A DNA stretch of 59,093 nt. It comes from Actinomycetota bacterium. GTDB lineage: Bacteria > Actinomycetota > Acidimicrobiia > IMCC26256 > VFJJ01. The position numbers and the translations under genes are program-made. The stretch's first letter is position 1. Each line of letters begins with the position of its first letter. The stretch is from the NCBI GenBank assembly GCA_009886115.1, contig VFJJ01000142.1, positions 1 through 59,093 on the forward strand. Reading direction: 5' to 3'. Positions 2,932-11,766 of the stretch are shown piece by piece. The notes under the pieces were generated by a model. The model did not search any database and was not told where the DNA came from. It was given only the letters and a program-made list of their open reading frames with translations.

Positions 2932-2995
2932 CCCCGACACACCGAGACCCCGACACACCGAGACCCCGACACGCCGAGACCCCGATGTGCCGACA
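2932..2995. repeat. 16-bp tandem repeat, four copies
   Basis: Unit CCCCGACACACCGAGA repeated at 2932, 2948, 2964 and 2980; the third has one change and the fourth several. It lies directly after the LLM stop and ahead of the glycosyltransferase. It overlaps an in-frame ATG at 2985, one reason for preferring the later GTG start at 3039. Confidence 0.9.
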
Positions 2996-3038
2996 CGGAC
3001 TCCACGAGGCTTCCGAGGTTCGGGGATACGGTGACGGG

Positions 3039-3893
3039 GTGATCTCGGTGGTGGTTCCGGCGCGCAACGCAGCGGGTGTGATCGAGGGCCAGTTGGCTGC
3101 CCTTGCTGCGCAGGTCGTCGCCGAGCCGTGGGAGGTGATCGTCGCCGACAACGGCTCCACCGACGACACCGCCGCCGTGGTGGCGGCCTGGGCCGACCGG
3201 CTGCCGGTGCGGGTCGTCGACGCCTCCCTGCGTGCGGGGGTCAACTACGCCCGCAACACCGGGGCCGGTGCTGCGCTCGGCGACCGGGTGTTGTTCTGCG
3301 ATGCCGACGACGAGGTCGAGTCGGGCTGGGTGAGTGCGCTCGCCGGTGGGCTCCGGGACCACGATGGCGTGGGCGGGCGGATCGATCGGCGACGGTTCAC
3401 CGACGTCTCCCGCCAGCGCCAGGGCCTCGTCGTGTCTGACGGGCTCACGCCATGGCCCGGCTACCTGTCATTCGTCACCGGCGCGAACTGCGGCATCCGG
3501 GCCGAGGTGCTCGCGGCGCTCGGAGGCTTCGACGAGGAGTTCTCCAACGGGGGCGACGACGTCGAGATCTCGTGGCGCCTGCAACTCGCTGGGTACGGTC
3601 TGGGCTTCGTGCCCGAAGCGGTGGTGCACTACCGCGAGCGCACCCACGGACGGGCCGCGGCCAAGCAGTCCTACGGCTATGGCCGCCAGGATCCCCATCT
3701 CCACCGCCGGTTCGAGGCCCACGGGATGCCCGGCTCAGGGATCGTCCAAGGGCTCAGGAGCTGGGGCCATCTGCTCGTGCGGGCCCCGAGCTACGTCCGG
3801 ACACCGGCGGGACGGGCCCAGTGGATTCGGAGCGCCAGCCGGCGTGCGGGCCGTATCGCGGGCAGCGTCGCCCACCGGAACCTGTACCTCTGA
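3039..3893 (+). CDS. Family 2 glycosyltransferase
   Basis: A 284-residue GT-A fold glycosyltransferase that would move a sugar from a nucleotide donor to a growing glycan. The nucleotide-binding ADNGSTDDT is at 36-44, the metal-binding DADD at 88-91 and the acceptor/base region GGDDVEISWR at 171-180. No membrane segment is seen; a basic C-terminal region may sit on the membrane surface. The GTG at 3039 places the first strand (ISVVVPARN) at the N-terminus; the upstream ATG at 2985 falls inside the tandem repeat. It converges, with only 15 bases between stops, on the phosphodiesterase-like gene. A second GT2 and a kinase-methyltransferase lie beyond. Confidence 0.85.
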   Translation: MISVVVPARNAAGVIEGQLAALAAQVVAEPWEVIVADNGSTDDTAAVVAAWADRLPVRVVDASLRAGVNYARNTGAGAALGDRVLFCDADDEVESGWVSALAGGLRDHDGVGGRIDRRRFTDVSRQRQGLVVSDGLTPWPGYLSFVTGANCGIRAEVLAALGGFDEEFSNGGDDVEISWRLQLAGYGLGFVPEAVVHYRERTHGRAAAKQSYGYGRQDPHLHRRFEAHGMPGSGIVQGLRSWGHLLVRAPSYVRTPAGRAQWIRSASRRAGRIAGSVAHRNLYL

Positions 3894-3908: not shown

Positions 3909-5393
3909 TCAGACGAGAGCGGGTCGCGGGTGTCCGTCGATCGCCGCCAACTCGATGCCCAGCCGCGCAGCGATCGTGGGCGCCAGGTCGACGACGTCGA
4001 TCGGGGCCGAACGCGGACCGGGCTCGACCCCGGGCGCTCGCAGCAGCGCCAGGCCGGAGGGGCGATGATCGCCGGAACGGATCCCCTGGTACGACCCACG
4101 CAGCACGCCGACGAGCGGTGAGCGGGCGCTGGTGATCGGGCCATCGCGGCGCCAGTCGACGAGCAGGTCGGGAAGGTCGTCTCGCATCTCGCCCGGGTAC
4201 AGGTCGTCGACGCGCAACACCCTCCGCACGAGGGGTTGGCCGGTGTCGGCGTCCTCGAGCTCGAGGAACCGCTCGCTCAACCAGCTCAGGAGCTCTTCGC
4301 TCTCGGGTCCGGGAGCCACCCGGCCCCGAGGCTCCCGTCCGATCAGGTTGAGCCGCACCGCGCCGAAGAGCTCGTTGTTGGGGATGGGATACACGCGGCG
4401 GGAACCGTCGACGCTCGTGGTCCGCGACGGCGGGTCGCCGGGCCGTCGCCACCGTGAGGCCTCCCGGCGAATCCTGTCGACACGGCGCCGGGCGATCTCG
4501 GCCACGCGGCGGCTGATCGGGGCCCGTCCCGATGCCATGTCGAGGCGCCTCACGATCTCGGCGAAGAGATGATCGCCGTCGTGGTGGGGTCCGATGCCGT
4601 GGCTCAGGAGCACCAGCACCGGGGTGTCGGCGTCGACGGCGTCGATGAGCCGGCCCAGCTCGCGATCGAGTGCCTCGTAGGTGGACTCGAGTGGATCACC
4701 GACTCGAGCGACCAACCCGGGGTCGTGGTCGGGCCAGGTGGGATCGTGCAGGCCCCAGAACTGGTGCCCGGCACAGTGCGACTCGCCGTACACGACGAGG
4801 AACAGGTCCCACGGCTCCCGGGCGAGGAGCTCGAGGCACATGTCGGTCTTGACGACCATCCCCTGGGCCAGGCGATCGCGCAGCTCGGCGTGCTCGCCGC
4901 GCCGCATGTAGCTGTCGCAGCTCCCCTGCACCGGATGGGCGCCGTGGCGGCTCACCAGGTCGTCGCCCAGCGGGCCGGGCGACCACGCGCGAGGGAGCAT
5001 GCGATCGTGTGTGCCCCACTCGATGACCTGCAGGCCGTTGATGTCAGCGGTGAGCGAGCTCAGCGGTGCGTCGAACACGCACACTCGGCGACCCTGGCGT
5101 GACAGCGTGCTCCAGAACGGGGTCGGCGTGATGTCGTTGGGCGTCCGGCGGGCGATCTCGTAGGTGCCGTTCACGAACTGGCGGAAGCAGTAGAAGCCGT
5201 GGCGACCCGGCCAGCGCCCGGTGGCGAACGAGGGCCAGACCGCGCCGACGACGATGCCGTCGGGATTCGTGGTCGGCGCCCAGGCCGACTTCGTGAGCAG
5301 CCGAGCCAGGGACGGCATGCGGCCCTCCCCGGCCAGCCGCCGGGCGAGGCCGGCGTCCATGGCGTCGAGGCCGATCACGAGCATCCCGGTCAT
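3909..5393 (-). CDS. Alkaline phosphatase superfamily protein (phosphodiesterase/nucleotide pyrophosphatase type)
   Basis: A 494-residue hydrolase. The metal-binding Asp lies in LVIGLDAMD (D10), and WPSFATG (53-59) followed by PGRHGF is where this family carries its Thr/Ser nucleophile. The second metal cluster is represented by SHGIGPHHDGDH in the middle and GDHRPSG (441-447). It ends VDLAPTIAARLGI, a common closing motif of the superfamily. There is no signal peptide, so it probably acts in the cytoplasm or at the inner membrane face. Lying between two glycosyltransferases, it may process a glycan donor, phosphoglycan or sulfated sugar, but the substrate is not visible. Confidence 0.8.
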   Translation of the reverse strand: MTGMLVIGLDAMDAGLARRLAGEGRMPSLARLLTKSAWAPTTNPDGIVVGAVWPSFATGRWPGRHGFYCFRQFVNGTYEIARRTPNDITPTPFWSTLSRQGRRVCVFDAPLSSLTADINGLQVIEWGTHDRMLPRAWSPGPLGDDLVSRHGAHPVQGSCDSYMRRGEHAELRDRLAQGMVVKTDMCLELLAREPWDLFLVVYGESHCAGHQFWGLHDPTWPDHDPGLVARVGDPLESTYEALDRELGRLIDAVDADTPVLVLLSHGIGPHHDGDHLFAEIVRRLDMASGRAPISRRVAEIARRRVDRIRREASRWRRPGDPPSRTTSVDGSRRVYPIPNNELFGAVRLNLIGREPRGRVAPGPESEELLSWLSERFLELEDADTGQPLVRRVLRVDDLYPGEMRDDLPDLLVDWRRDGPITSARSPLVGVLRGSYQGIRSGDHRPSGLALLRAPGVEPGPRSAPIDVVDLAPTIAARLGIELAAIDGHPRPALV

Positions 5394-5478: not shown

Positions 5479-6384
5479 TCATCTCCGAGTTCCGACATCG
5501 CGATCGGGGTGGGGGCCGTGCCGTCGCCCACGAGCTCCCGGCGTGGTCGAGGCCCATCGCGCCACGGTCGCGCGGCCGATGTGCACGACCGTCCGCAACC
5601 TGGGGCGGGTTCGAAACGACCCCAGGAACAACGCCTGCGCGTGCACGGGATCGCCGGTGGTCAGCGCCATCAGCCCGGCCCGGCACAATCGGAAGGCCCG
5701 AGCCCGGGGATGGGCCGCGAACCAGACCGACTGCTCGTCCATGAAGGCCAGGCTCTCACGGACCCTGACGTCGAGGCCGTTTCCCGAACGCACACCCTGG
5801 TGCAGGCGCACGAGGTATCCGACCCGGTCGTCGGTCGTCACCGGGCTGCGCTGGGCCGTGCGCCACCACCATTCGACGTCCTCCAGCGCTCGCCAGCGCT
5901 CGTCGAAGCGGGACATCACCGTTCGCCGAACCATGGTGGCGCCGAGGCTCGGCGTGAAGCCGTCGAGGATGGTCTCCGCGACGTTGCCTTCAAGTCGGCG
6001 GTGCCGACCGGTCGGGTCGTGGAGGTAGCGCGTGCCGCACACGGCGATCGGACCTCGCCCCAACCCGTCGAGGCCGATGGCGAGACGGTCCGGGCTGAAC
6101 AGGTCGTCGTCGTCGAGAAAGGCGAGCACGTCGCCACGGGAGGCGTCGATCCCGGCGTTGCGAGCCCGAGCCGGGCCCGGATCGCCGTCGAGCCTCAGGA
6201 GCCTGATCCGGGGATCCTCGGGAACCCGTGCCGGGGGATCGGATGCGCTGTCGACGACGATGAGCTCCCAGCCGTCGACCGTCTGCGCCTGCACCGACTC
6301 GATCGCCAGTGCCAGCAGGGCGGGGCGATTGCGGGTGGGGAGGATCACGGTGATCCGGCACGCGTGTGCCTCGGGTGGCCCCAT
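5479..6384 (-). CDS. Family 2 glycosyltransferase
   Basis: A 301-residue GT-A glycosyltransferase. It shows ITVILPTRNRP at 11-21, the DXD-type metal site LDDDD near 90-94 and an acceptor-side acidic pair in LEDVEWWWR (about 167-175). An ATG at 6438 directly follows the stop of the upstream gene, but the ATG at 6384 has AGAGG seven bases upstream and begins just before the conserved fold, so it is preferred. It lies in the same direction immediately downstream of the kinase-methyltransferase fusion and is probably in one operon with it. This suggests both act on the same surface glycan. Confidence 0.8.
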   Translation of the reverse strand: MGPPEAHACRITVILPTRNRPALLALAIESVQAQTVDGWELIVVDSASDPPARVPEDPRIRLLRLDGDPGPARARNAGIDASRGDVLAFLDDDDLFSPDRLAIGLDGLGRGPIAVCGTRYLHDPTGRHRRLEGNVAETILDGFTPSLGATMVRRTVMSRFDERWRALEDVEWWWRTAQRSPVTTDDRVGYLVRLHQGVRSGNGLDVRVRESLAFMDEQSVWFAAHPRARAFRLCRAGLMALTTGDPVHAQALFLGSFRTRPRLRTVVHIGRATVARWASTTPGARGRRHGPHPDRDVGTRR

Positions 6385-6438
6385 GCTGTTCCTCTGCCCG
6401 GTCACGCGTACATCCAAGCACGGCTGTGCGGCGGTCAT

Positions 6439-7884
6439 CTACATCCCCACCCGCCAACGGGCGTGCAGGATCACGTTCGGGTCGTCGGTGACGGCGATCT
6501 CGGAGACTCGTCGGCCGTGATGCTCCCACTGGGCGGCGAGCGAGGCCGCCCGGCTCGCGGGCACCTCCACGAGGAGCTCGTGGGCATCGGAGGTCACCAG
6601 CAGATGCACGACCGTGTCGTTCCACTGGGCCGTCGTGTGCCCGATCGCCACGATGACGTCGGCGCCCGATCGGAGCGCCGCGGCAGCCGCCGGGGCGAAC
6701 GGATCGGCGGCCCGGGTGGTGACGGCGTCGAGCTGGAAGGACTCGGCCAGGGCCGCGGCGGCGGCGATGCGATGGCCGGTGGGCGCAACGACGAGGGACG
6801 CCGCGGCACCCTCCATGCGGGCGAAGGTGGCCGCGAAACCGGCGTCGGGCCCCAGGTCGATGACGTGGCGACCCGACCAGGAGACGTGGGTTCGTACTCG
6901 CTCCCAGGTGGTCTCCCAACCCCGGTGCCCGATCCCGTGCAACCCGACGAGCTCGAAGCCCCACGGCTCGCTGGCTTCGGAAGCGGATCGATCGGTCGCG
7001 CCGAGCTCCCACACGTTGCCGAGCTCGAGCAGGCCGGTGATCTGGCGATCGATCCACGCTTTGTGCTTGACGACGCTCCGTCGCTCGCCCCGCTCGAGGC
7101 GGCGCTGCCACCGTCGGGCGTAGATCCGAGCGAGCGGGCCCGTCGGATGCCGAGCCAGCACCACCGAGCGCACGAGGTTCCTGAACGCCACGGGTGTGCG
7201 GTTGGGCCCGACACCCAGCACGTCACAGGCCAGCGCTCGCAGCCGGGATGCGCGCTGCGCCCGTCCGAAGTCGAGGATGTTCGCGTGCCCGTCGGGGCCC
7301 ACGATGATGTTCCCCACGCTGATGTCGCCGTGGGCCACGCCGGCCAGGTTCGTCCGCACGATCGCGGCGAGCGCCCGGAGGAGTGACACCTCGTTGCCTC
7401 GACCCAGGCCCAGGAGCCGATCGATGGTCTCGCCCTCGATCACCGGGATCCGCAGCATCTCCCAGTCGCCGTCGACCATGGTGTGCGTCGTGGCCAGACC
7501 GGTGCCCCGGATGTGCTCGGCGAGATGACGAGCGACCGCGTGCTCCCTCGTGAGGCCGGCGCCGAGCTTCAGGTGGGCGGCGGGTGTGTGCCGGTAGACC
7601 TTGACGATCTGGCGACCGTCGCGAAAGACCCGTCGTTCGCCGTCGTGCCAGCTCACCGAGATCAGCTCGGCCTTGGGCAGGTGACGTTCCTGGAACCCGC
7701 GCCAGGCCAGGGTGCGCTCGAGGTATTCGGAACGGACGGTTCTGGCGTGCGCGCCCGCTGCCGGCTGCGACGGCTGCGATGAGCCCCTCCCCGGCGCCCT
7801 GTCACGCTCCAGATCGGGCTCCCGGACCAGCGTGGGGCTGGCGGTGACGGGTGCCGTACGGCCGGCTCGTTCCTTCTGGCGCAT
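6439..7884 (-). CDS. Kinase-like / methyltransferase-like fusion protein, putative glycan chain modifier
   Basis: A 481-residue protein with two parts. The first half looks like a small-molecule or sugar kinase of the protein-kinase fold: a Lys in RQIVKVYRH (K95), a Glu in TREHAV (E114), the catalytic loop AHGDISVGN (184-192, Asp 187) and DFG at 205-207. The second half has a class I SAM-methyltransferase motif I, VIDLGPDAGFAA (341-352), followed by alternating strands and helices. Kinase and methyltransferase joined in one chain next to glycosyltransferases recalls WbdD, which caps O-polysaccharide by phosphorylation and methylation; in WbdD the methyltransferase comes first, here it comes last. 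Residues 1-60 look unstructured. No clear ribosome-binding site precedes the ATG, so a later start is possible. Function is inference. Confidence 0.65.
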   Translation of the reverse strand: MRQKERAGRTAPVTASPTLVREPDLERDRAPGRGSSQPSQPAAGAHARTVRSEYLERTLAWRGFQERHLPKAELISVSWHDGERRVFRDGRQIVKVYRHTPAAHLKLGAGLTREHAVARHLAEHIRGTGLATTHTMVDGDWEMLRIPVIEGETIDRLLGLGRGNEVSLLRALAAIVRTNLAGVAHGDISVGNIIVGPDGHANILDFGRAQRASRLRALACDVLGVGPNRTPVAFRNLVRSVVLARHPTGPLARIYARRWQRRLERGERRSVVKHKAWIDRQITGLLELGNVWELGATDRSASEASEPWGFELVGLHGIGHRGWETTWERVRTHVSWSGRHVIDLGPDAGFAATFARMEGAAASLVVAPTGHRIAAAAALAESFQLDAVTTRAADPFAPAAAAALRSGADVIVAIGHTTAQWNDTVVHLLVTSDAHELLVEVPASRAASLAAQWEHHGRRVSEIAVTDDPNVILHARWRVGM

Positions 7885-9687: not shown

Positions 9688-10814
9688 GGTTGCTCCATCC
9701 CGTACAACGCCAAGGCGTTGAGCCCGACGAGCCCTGCTCGAGACGTCGGCGTCATCGCCTCGGCGTGCTCGATGAGCTCGTCGACGACACCGGGGTACTT
9801 CGCGTCGCTGTGCGGGAAGTCGGACGCCCAGATCATGGTGTGCTGGCCGATGCGGTGGCCGAGGAGCGCAGCGGTGTGCTCGCCGGGGTCGAAGCTCACC
9901 CAGCACTGGCGGCGGAAGTACTCCGACGGCTTGAGCGTGAGGTCGGGGACCTGCCAACCGTACGACTCGATGAACTCGTCCATCCGGTCCATCCAGTGCG
10001 CCACCCATCCGCCTCCGCACTCGAGCACACCGATCTTCAGCTCCGGGTAGCGCTCGAGCACCCCGCCCCAGACCAGGTTCGACAGCGTCAGGTGCTGATC
10101 GAAGAACAGGATGGTCGCGTGGTGGGTGCCTGGGGCCATGAGGTCGGCCATGCGGCGACTGGTTCCGTCGACGTCCCACGGCCCGGCCGGATGGAACGCC
10201 AGCGGTAGCCCTTCCTCGATGAGCGCTTCGTAGACGGGGTGGAAGTCGGCGTGGTGGAGTTGCCGGCCCAGGAAGGGATTGGGTCGGCACCACCCGGCCT
10301 TCATGCCGAGGCGGGCGATGCGGTGCACCTCCTCGGCGGCTGCGGCGGGATCCTGCATGGGCAGCACGCCCGTGCCGATCAGACGCCCGGGATCGGCCTG
10401 GCACCAGTCGGCGAGCCAGTCGTTGTAGACCCGGCAATGGGCGACGGCGAGCTCGGGGTCTTCGATGCCTGCGAGCTTCAGGCTCAGCCCCCCGTACATC
10501 ACCGCAACGTCGATGCCCTCGGCGTCGAGCACCTTCAGACGCTCGTTGGCATCGAAACCGGCAGGGTTGAGGTCTTCGTAGTGCGTGCCTTGACCGAGGT
10601 TCACGTACGGGGTTCCGGCGTTGCCCAGCCCGGCGAGGCCCCTGTCGGTGAGCACCTTGTCCTCGACGAGGCACGTGTCGAAGCCGGTGTCGGCGTTCCA
10701 GCGCAAGCGCATCGCCCGGTCGCGCATCGAGGTCGGCAGGTTGTCCTCCCACAGCCGGGGGGGCTCGCAGAGATGCCCGTCGGCATCGACGACGTAGTGC
10801 CCGTGGTCGTTCAT
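9684..10814 (-). CDS. Amidohydrolase family 2 (metal-dependent hydrolase/decarboxylase)
   Basis: A 376-residue TIM-barrel protein of the amidohydrolase_2 group. The N-terminal DADGH (10-14) replaces the usual DxHxH metal pair, FHPAG provides a His in the middle and ASDFPHSDAKYP gives the late Asp. Relatives are often found in actinobacterial clusters for breakdown of aromatic or steroid-like compounds and can be hydrolases or non-oxidative decarboxylases. Its stop overlaps the GTG of the deacylase-like gene, so the two are made together. It diverges from the recombinase gene across roughly 100 bases, which must hold both promoters. Confidence 0.8.
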   Translation of the reverse strand: MNDHGHYVVDADGHLCEPPRLWEDNLPTSMRDRAMRLRWNADTGFDTCLVEDKVLTDRGLAGLGNAGTPYVNLGQGTHYEDLNPAGFDANERLKVLDAEGIDVAVMYGGLSLKLAGIEDPELAVAHCRVYNDWLADWCQADPGRLIGTGVLPMQDPAAAAEEVHRIARLGMKAGWCRPNPFLGRQLHHADFHPVYEALIEEGLPLAFHPAGPWDVDGTSRRMADLMAPGTHHATILFFDQHLTLSNLVWGGVLERYPELKIGVLECGGGWVAHWMDRMDEFIESYGWQVPDLTLKPSEYFRRQCWVSFDPGEHTAALLGHRIGQHTMIWASDFPHSDAKYPGVVDELIEHAEAMTPTSRAGLVGLNALALYGMEQP

Positions 10815-10920
10815 GGCCCTCCCGGGAAGCTCACGCGTGTCCAGCCGTCAGGGTGCGCTCGCGACCGTCGAGCGTCAACCACGTGCTTGTTATCGGACGC
10901 GTGACGGCTACCGTGGGGCC

Positions 10921-11766
10921 GTGGCTTCGACCCCGTCGGTCAACACCCGACGTGCCTATCGTGCCGACTGGGCCGACTTCGTCGCGTGGTGCGCCTCGCA
11001 GCGCCGGCGGGCCCTGCCGGCGACCCCGGCCACCGTGGCGGCGTACGTCGCGTGGTCGGGAGAGCGCCACCGACCGTCGACGGTCCATCGGCGCCTGGCT
11101 GCGATCTCGTTCGAGCACGCCGCCGTGGGTGCGCCGTCGCCGTGTCGGCACGACGGCGTTCGCGCCGCCGACGCCCTGGTCGCCTGGCACGGGCGTGACC
11201 TGCGCTCGCCGGCGGCGCCGGCGACGGTCGACCACGTGCTCTCGATCGTGCGCTGCTTCGACGAATCGGCGGCCGGGAGGCGTGATCACGCGCTCGTGCT
11301 CGTGATGTTCGGGGCCGGCCTGCGCCGGGCCCAGGTCGCGGCGCTCGATCTCGCAGACGTGCGTGTCGGGAGACGATCACTCCGCATCGCAGTTCCCGCC
11401 CGTCCCGAGATCCTCGTTCCGGCGGGCTCGAGACCGGAGCTGTGCGCGGTCACGGCATGGCGGGCCTGGCTCCGATTGCGATCGGTGCCCACGCCCGTTC
11501 GGGACCCGGGACCGGTTCCGGCGTTCTGCCCGGTCGATCGGTTCGACCGCATCCAGCCGGGCCGACTCTCCGATCGCGGGGTGTCGCGGGTGGTCGCTCG
11601 TGCTGCTGTGGCCGCAGGAATCGATCCTCACCAGATCACGACAGGTTCGTTGCGAGCTGGGCTGGTGAGGGTGGCCAAGGCGAGGGGCGTCGCCGACGAC
11701 ACGATCATGCGTCAGACGGGGCATCGCCAGGCGCGGCGTGTTCGGGAGCTCTCCCGGAGTCGCTGA
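10921..11766 (+). CDS. Tyrosine recombinase family protein lacking the catalytic tyrosine
   Basis: A 281-residue protein with a SAM-like N-terminal core-binding domain (NTRRAYRADWADFVAWC, 8-24) and a phage-integrase-type catalytic domain. The first catalytic Arg is present in GAGLRR (R135). Box II reads TTGSLRAG, keeping Arg 245 but with Gly 242 where the His usually is. QTGH keeps His 268. The position nine residues on, normally the tyrosine nucleophile, is Leu 277 and no tyrosine occurs before the stop. It cannot carry out normal strand exchange and may be a remnant or a DNA-binding derivative. The GTG at 10921 begins right at the conserved domain. No attachment site was recognised. It converges on the acyl-CoA ligase, 12 bases apart. 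Confidence 0.75.
   Translation: MASTPSVNTRRAYRADWADFVAWCASQRRRALPATPATVAAYVAWSGERHRPSTVHRRLAAISFEHAAVGAPSPCRHDGVRAADALVAWHGRDLRSPAAPATVDHVLSIVRCFDESAAGRRDHALVLVMFGAGLRRAQVAALDLADVRVGRRSLRIAVPARPEILVPAGSRPELCAVTAWRAWLRLRSVPTPVRDPGPVPAFCPVDRFDRIQPGRLSDRGVSRVVARAAVAAGIDPHQITTGSLRAGLVRVAKARGVADDTIMRQTGHRQARRVRELSRSR

Follow-up and report, generated by a model that had tools for sequence, protein, structure and literature searches.

P0001 is a rare bacterial fusion of a kinase and a half-eroded methyltransferase, encoded beside sugar-transfer genes in a 59,093-nucleotide stretch of DNA from an Actinomycetota bacterium (contig VFJJ01000142.1 of GenBank assembly GCA_009886115.1; the whole stretch is referred to here as the window). 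Only two members of this type of fusion are known, P0001 itself and a homologue, P0002. We tentatively favor, at a little short of even confidence, a reading in which P0001 is a glycan-phosphorylating kinase that carries a degenerate methyltransferase-derived domain and works with the adjacent GT2 glycosyltransferase, the methyltransferase activity having been lost or become weak.

Glycan-finishing fusions of a kinase and a methyltransferase arose more than once, as WbdD, ORF6 of K. pneumoniae O7, and the NoeA-type proteins illustrate. If true, our reading would add a further sparse family with another type of kinase and with a member that is losing its methyltransferase, pointing to a ready recombination of such parts, and would indicate phosphorylated glycans in a lineage of uncharted surface chemistry.

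The gene and its reading frame

The P0001 gene occupies the coordinates given for it in the original prediction, on the minus strand, which that prediction had not specified; read on the plus strand, this stretch is interrupted by stops. The features considered here are as follows.

6439..7884, minus strand, P0001, kinase-methyltransferase-type fusion protein of 481 aa (translation, and the homologue P0002 of identical order)
7195..7674, minus strand, kinase domain core, about residues 71-230 (motif positions, weak Pfam kinase matches, and profile matches to PknA and WbdD in the PDB)
6442..7000, minus strand, methyltransferase-derived domain, residues 295-481 approximately (supported by its relationship to the second half of P0002)
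5479..6438, minus strand, GT2 glycosyltransferase, next gene of the operon (PF00535, E=3e-25; junction sequence)
3909..5393, minus strand, alkaline-phosphatase-superfamily (Phosphodiest) protein of 494 aa, third gene of the set (PF01663, E=7e-22)
2985..3893, plus strand, second GT2 glycosyltransferase (PF00535, E=5e-24)

The GC content of third codon positions (GC3) is steady, at 0.84-0.94, over the full length of the frame, and this evenness of GC by codon position along the gene argues that the frame is genuine up to its end. A frameshift or assembly error as the origin of the degenerate C-terminal half was considered and is unlikely, because GC3 holds at 0.85-0.91 as far as the stop codon, which lies directly against the start of the next gene. 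Residues 1-50 seem to be disordered. Single-sequence structure models of P0001 reached pLDDT values of 36 and 46 and are unreliable, and structural claims are therefore withheld; toward the C-terminus, these unreliable models place strands and a helix in an order that would fit the sheet of a methyltransferase.

The kinase half

The N-terminal half has the residue set of the protein-kinase fold, with K95, the alpha-C glutamate E114, D187, N192, and D205-G207, and its catalytic residues are intact as judged by motif position. The individual motifs lie exactly where they had been predicted, with HGDISVGN at 185-192 and DFG at 205-207. Pfam and NCBIfam searches with the whole protein returned weak kinase matches, and the best PDB match of a two-sequence profile of P0001 and P0002 is PknA (1.3e-6). 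In pairwise comparisons, the score of the kinase half is 84 with WbdD and 86-117 with a control set of 40 ordinary bacterial kinases of the Ser/Thr and UbiB types. Because the WbdD score falls below that range and PknA is the better PDB match, kinship with WbdD is not specific, and a particular relationship between the two kinases was dropped after this control. The kinase of P0002 is nearer to that of P0001 than is any of the 40 ordinary kinases (z=23), and shuffle tests of the two kinase halves give z=24. Overall, the similarity of the kinase half to known kinases is general, and would be compatible with a protein or small-molecule kinase too.

The methyltransferase half

The domain at residues 295-481 opens with the lead-in GWETTWERVRTHVSWSGRHV, followed by the methyltransferase motif I DLGPDAG at 343-349, which begins at D343 as foreseen from the sequence. 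Across the lead-in and motif I, P0001 and P0002 are clearly related in shuffle tests (z=13.6). Beyond motif I their similarity is at the level of noise, with z=2.0 and 25 of 500 shuffles scoring equally well. Clear sequence support for the methyltransferase half of P0001 is thus confined to the lead-in and motif I. A faint match to CmoB-type methyltransferases, from the Pfam and NCBIfam searches, covers residues 324-368, and a Pfam search with the methyltransferase half alone found no methyltransferase.

The two homologues differ at the positions that mark an active class I SAM methyltransferase. Motif I reads GCNLG in P0002 and GPDAG in P0001, and the segment that follows is AVDID in P0002 (with the acid D318) and VVAPTG in P0001. 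The position of the ribose-binding acid is Ala367 in P0001 and D318 in P0002, the latter aligned with D82 of WbdD, the acid that holds SAM in that enzyme (PMC3482155). P0001 therefore has an altered motif I and lacks the acid after beta-2, whereas P0002 has both elements. Because similarity is almost wholly lost past motif I, including the acidic residue for the SAM ribose, the methyltransferase of P0001 is probably weak or dead.

The homologue P0002 and the distribution of the fusion

P0002 is a protein of 429 aa encoded on the minus strand (L050:11168..9879) of genome G523, which belongs to a different class of the same phylum. P0001 aligns with it at 30% identity over residues 64-385 (E=2.5e-21 in G523), with both halves included in the alignment and the kinase, linker, and motif I all homologous. 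The order is again kinase first and methyltransferase second, with Pfam matches to an APH-like kinase in the first half (1.5e-4) and to Methyltransf_25 in the second (5e-8), and the methyltransferase is intact by motif.

P0002 was the one homologue recovered from a phylum sample of 396 genomes. No homologue was present in 58 genomes of the order of P0001 or 395 of its class, and no further homologue among 66 genomes of the class of P0002. Viral contigs, phages, plasmids, and a named genome collection likewise yielded none, where the collection scans used exact peptide patterns, which are insensitive to relatives at 30% identity and so are no proof of absence from the collection. The occurrence of P0002 in another class means that the fusion is no accident of one genome. 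The fusion is thus old enough to span two classes, yet it is very patchy.

Neighboring genes and partners

The TAG stop of P0001 directly abuts the ATG of the GT2 gene at 6438, with a gap of zero. Relatives of this GT2 include one at 48% identity in a polysaccharide/sulfotransferase-type cluster (G048), and one at 40% beside an ABC transporter (G012). The original prediction of two neighboring GT2 genes was correct as to their presence; the second is on the opposite strand and convergent with the phosphodiesterase-like gene, and thus lies near P0001 and outside its operon. Upstream of P0001, the nearest frame on the same strand ends 87 bases before the start and is hydrolase-like by eye. The surroundings of the gene set are mostly catabolic-looking, with no polysaccharide cluster. 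P0002, in contrast, lies in a glycan cluster with a WbaP-type sugar transferase, two GT4 proteins, and a flippase-like protein without a Pfam match, and its neighborhood has no homologues of the window's GT2 (6438..5479) or phosphodiesterase-like gene.

P0001 could instead be a protein kinase, or a small-molecule kinase of antibiotic or choline type, that lies beside glycosyltransferases by chance and retains a non-functional methyltransferase remnant. The catabolic surroundings would fit such an enzyme, as would the scores of 86-117 with PknA/B-like and UbiB-like kinases and the top PDB match to PknA. We nonetheless regard it as improbable, given the direct coupling of P0001 to a GT2, the location of P0002 in a polysaccharide cluster, the closer relationship to P0002 (z=23) than to any of those kinases, and the fact that the activation-loop and regulatory features of PknA/B were not seen in P0001.

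In G040 and G043, which represent two genera from the order of P0001, a single chain combines a homologue of the phosphodiesterase-like protein with a GT2, an arrangement that argues that the phosphodiesterase-like protein and the GT2 are partners. The fused proteins, of 854 and 890 aa (L076:6798-9362 and L077:6872-9544, both on the minus strand), have sulfatase-like frames nearby. In the window's own protein (3909-5393, minus strand), an alignment of six relatives, inspected by eye, shows what seem to be replacements at two positions, those of the customary Thr nucleophile and of the Asp in the metal motif DHG (WPSFATG and LSHG), so that this branch may differ from ordinary phosphodiesterases. 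Elsewhere in the window, a tyrosine-recombinase-like frame (10813-11766, plus strand) has a degenerate-looking stretch, TGSLRAG, in place of the usual catalytic HxxR-type one.

Proposed function

From the evidence above we infer a glycan substrate, an order of reactions, and a loss of methylation for P0001. The protein would be a soluble cytoplasmic enzyme of surface-glycan or glycolipid assembly, in which the N-terminal kinase-fold domain would transfer phosphate to a hydroxyl group on a sugar of the glycan intermediate that the adjacent GT2 makes. Because the second domain of P0002 looks like a working methyltransferase, the ancestral fusion probably acted twice on one acceptor, adding a phosphate and then a methyl group, and the methylation step is probably still active in the P0002 lineage and lost or weak in P0001. 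With the SAM-site acid and most identity gone, P0001 probably acts mainly as a kinase, its second domain being residual, acceptor-holding, or structural. The GT2, the alkaline-phosphatase-superfamily protein, and P0001 would form one functional unit. In a bolder version, which we think rather unlikely, P0001 and P0002 would found a separately evolved family of glycan-modifying kinase-methyltransferases, with a kinase unrelated to that of WbdD or NoeA, and the methyltransferase of P0001 would have become a non-catalytic device for acceptor recognition, so that the product would carry an unmethylated phosphate in place of the methyl phosphate made by its relatives.

Relationship to the NoeA family

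The reversed domain order had been taken for a novel, independent invention. That claim does not hold, because kinase-first fusions were already published as the Lani_1194/NoeA family, which joins a kinase and a methyltransferase in one chain and numbers about 2,000 homologues across 1,201 species, the largest group being the actinobacterial order Micromonosporales (PMC9758233, the Legionella pan-kinome). The order was confirmed in the sequences of S. meliloti NoeA and four relatives, where the kinase invariants D129, N134, and D146 precede a DLG at 307. The arrangement of P0001 is thus already known from thousands of other proteins.

The NoeA family is linked to glycan decoration, and P0001 could be a fully active decorator of the same kind, phosphorylating and methylating a small glycan or a glycolipid that is then exported, as has been proposed for NoeA of the NodL-NoeA-NoeB operon. 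Both proteins are kinase-first and of similar size (476 aa in NoeA, 481 in P0001), and comparison of the methyltransferase halves with NoeA detects similarity for P0002 (z=9.4, with 0.8 for P0001); motif I is widespread in class I methyltransferases. Alkaline-phosphatase-superfamily genes are also found near each, as NoeB belongs to this superfamily by fold prediction (PMC9758233), the sulfatase-like and LTA-synthase-like neighbors of NoeA belong to it by annotation, and the window has such a gene two genes downstream of P0001. However, the kinase halves are dissimilar (z=-0.5 for P0001 and 1.2 for P0002), a profile comparison by hhalign with the NoeA family aligns 49 columns, at motif I only, with a probability of 42%, and NoeB-type proteins and the window's phosphodiesterase are separate families. 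The residues differ as well: NoeA has an Arg for Lys and no recognized alpha-C Glu, where P0001 has K95 and E114, and NoeA retains a His-His pair and the SAM acid, neither of which is found in P0001. We consider an active decorator of this sort unlikely, and since no relationship between the kinase halves was detected, membership of P0001 and P0002 in the NoeA family is not claimed.

Within the NoeA family, the His-His pair of the methyltransferase domain is invariant and placed like H132/H133 of WbdD in an alignment (L056:11285-12712, plus strand), and by analogy this position suggests that NoeA may methylate a phosphate.

Comparison with WbdD and the question of chain termination

WbdD of E. 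coli O9a (PDB 4AZS and 4AZW) is a single chain that acts on glycans, with the methyltransferase followed by the kinase (PMC3482155). It has in common with P0001 the joining of a protein-kinase-fold domain to a class I methyltransferase or a domain derived from one, in the opposite order to the kinase (71-230) and methyltransferase-derived domain (295-481) of P0001. The WbdD sequence compared here is an O9-type one from another strain; WbdD of E. coli IAI1 is of the O8 type, which has no kinase. The profile of P0001 and P0002 matches WbdD in the PDB (1.2e-4) in two stretches, domain to like domain, in swapped order. This match, together with the order of domains in P0002, bears out the prediction of a kinase-first fusion beside glycosyltransferases. 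The further description of P0001 as like WbdD survives for the parts, but not for kinship beyond general folds, given the kinase score and a methyltransferase half that scores no higher against WbdD than do shuffled sequences.

The prediction had also cast P0001 as a chain terminator, which would phosphorylate and methylate the non-reducing end of a glycan, halting polymerization and fixing chain length. Both activities are represented by fold, with the swapped profile match, and the genome does encode Wzt proteins whose C-terminal domain is of the carbohydrate-binding kind, but only on other contigs (C56 and C190). WbdD, however, has a long coiled coil, a membrane region, the essential phosphate-binding residues R203 and H132/H133, the essential SAM acid D82, and linked WbdA, Wzm, and Wzt. 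P0001 ends right after the methyltransferase-derived domain, with nothing beyond residue 481 that could be a coiled coil or membrane anchor (its top hydrophobic 19-residue stretch is at 1.45), and no linked Wzm/Wzt or multi-domain polymerase was found among the neighboring genes examined. The His-His pair is absent, VAIGHTTAQW standing at the beta-4 position, A367 replaces D82, and a counterpart of R203 could not be assigned by alignment. The kinase is no nearer to WbdD than to any Ser/Thr kinase, and P0002 lies in a WbaP/flippase-type cluster, where WbdD-type capping is not the rule. Chain termination by P0001 is thus very improbable, and the protein does not reopen the question of chain length.

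A demonstrated terminator, ORF6 of K. pneumoniae O7, has the methyltransferase first and carries a coiled coil and GT2 polymerase modules within the one chain (PMC11231755). It shares with P0001 the pairing of a kinase and a methyltransferase, and acts on a glycan, but the two kinases are of unrelated types.

On contig C190 of the same genome, a locus on the minus strand (L081:1422-3813) encodes a Wzt with a carbohydrate-binding domain, then a 363-aa protein that is methyltransferase-like by eye and matches nothing in Pfam or NCBIfam, and a GT4. An O8-type glycan terminator of this genome would more naturally be sought at this locus.
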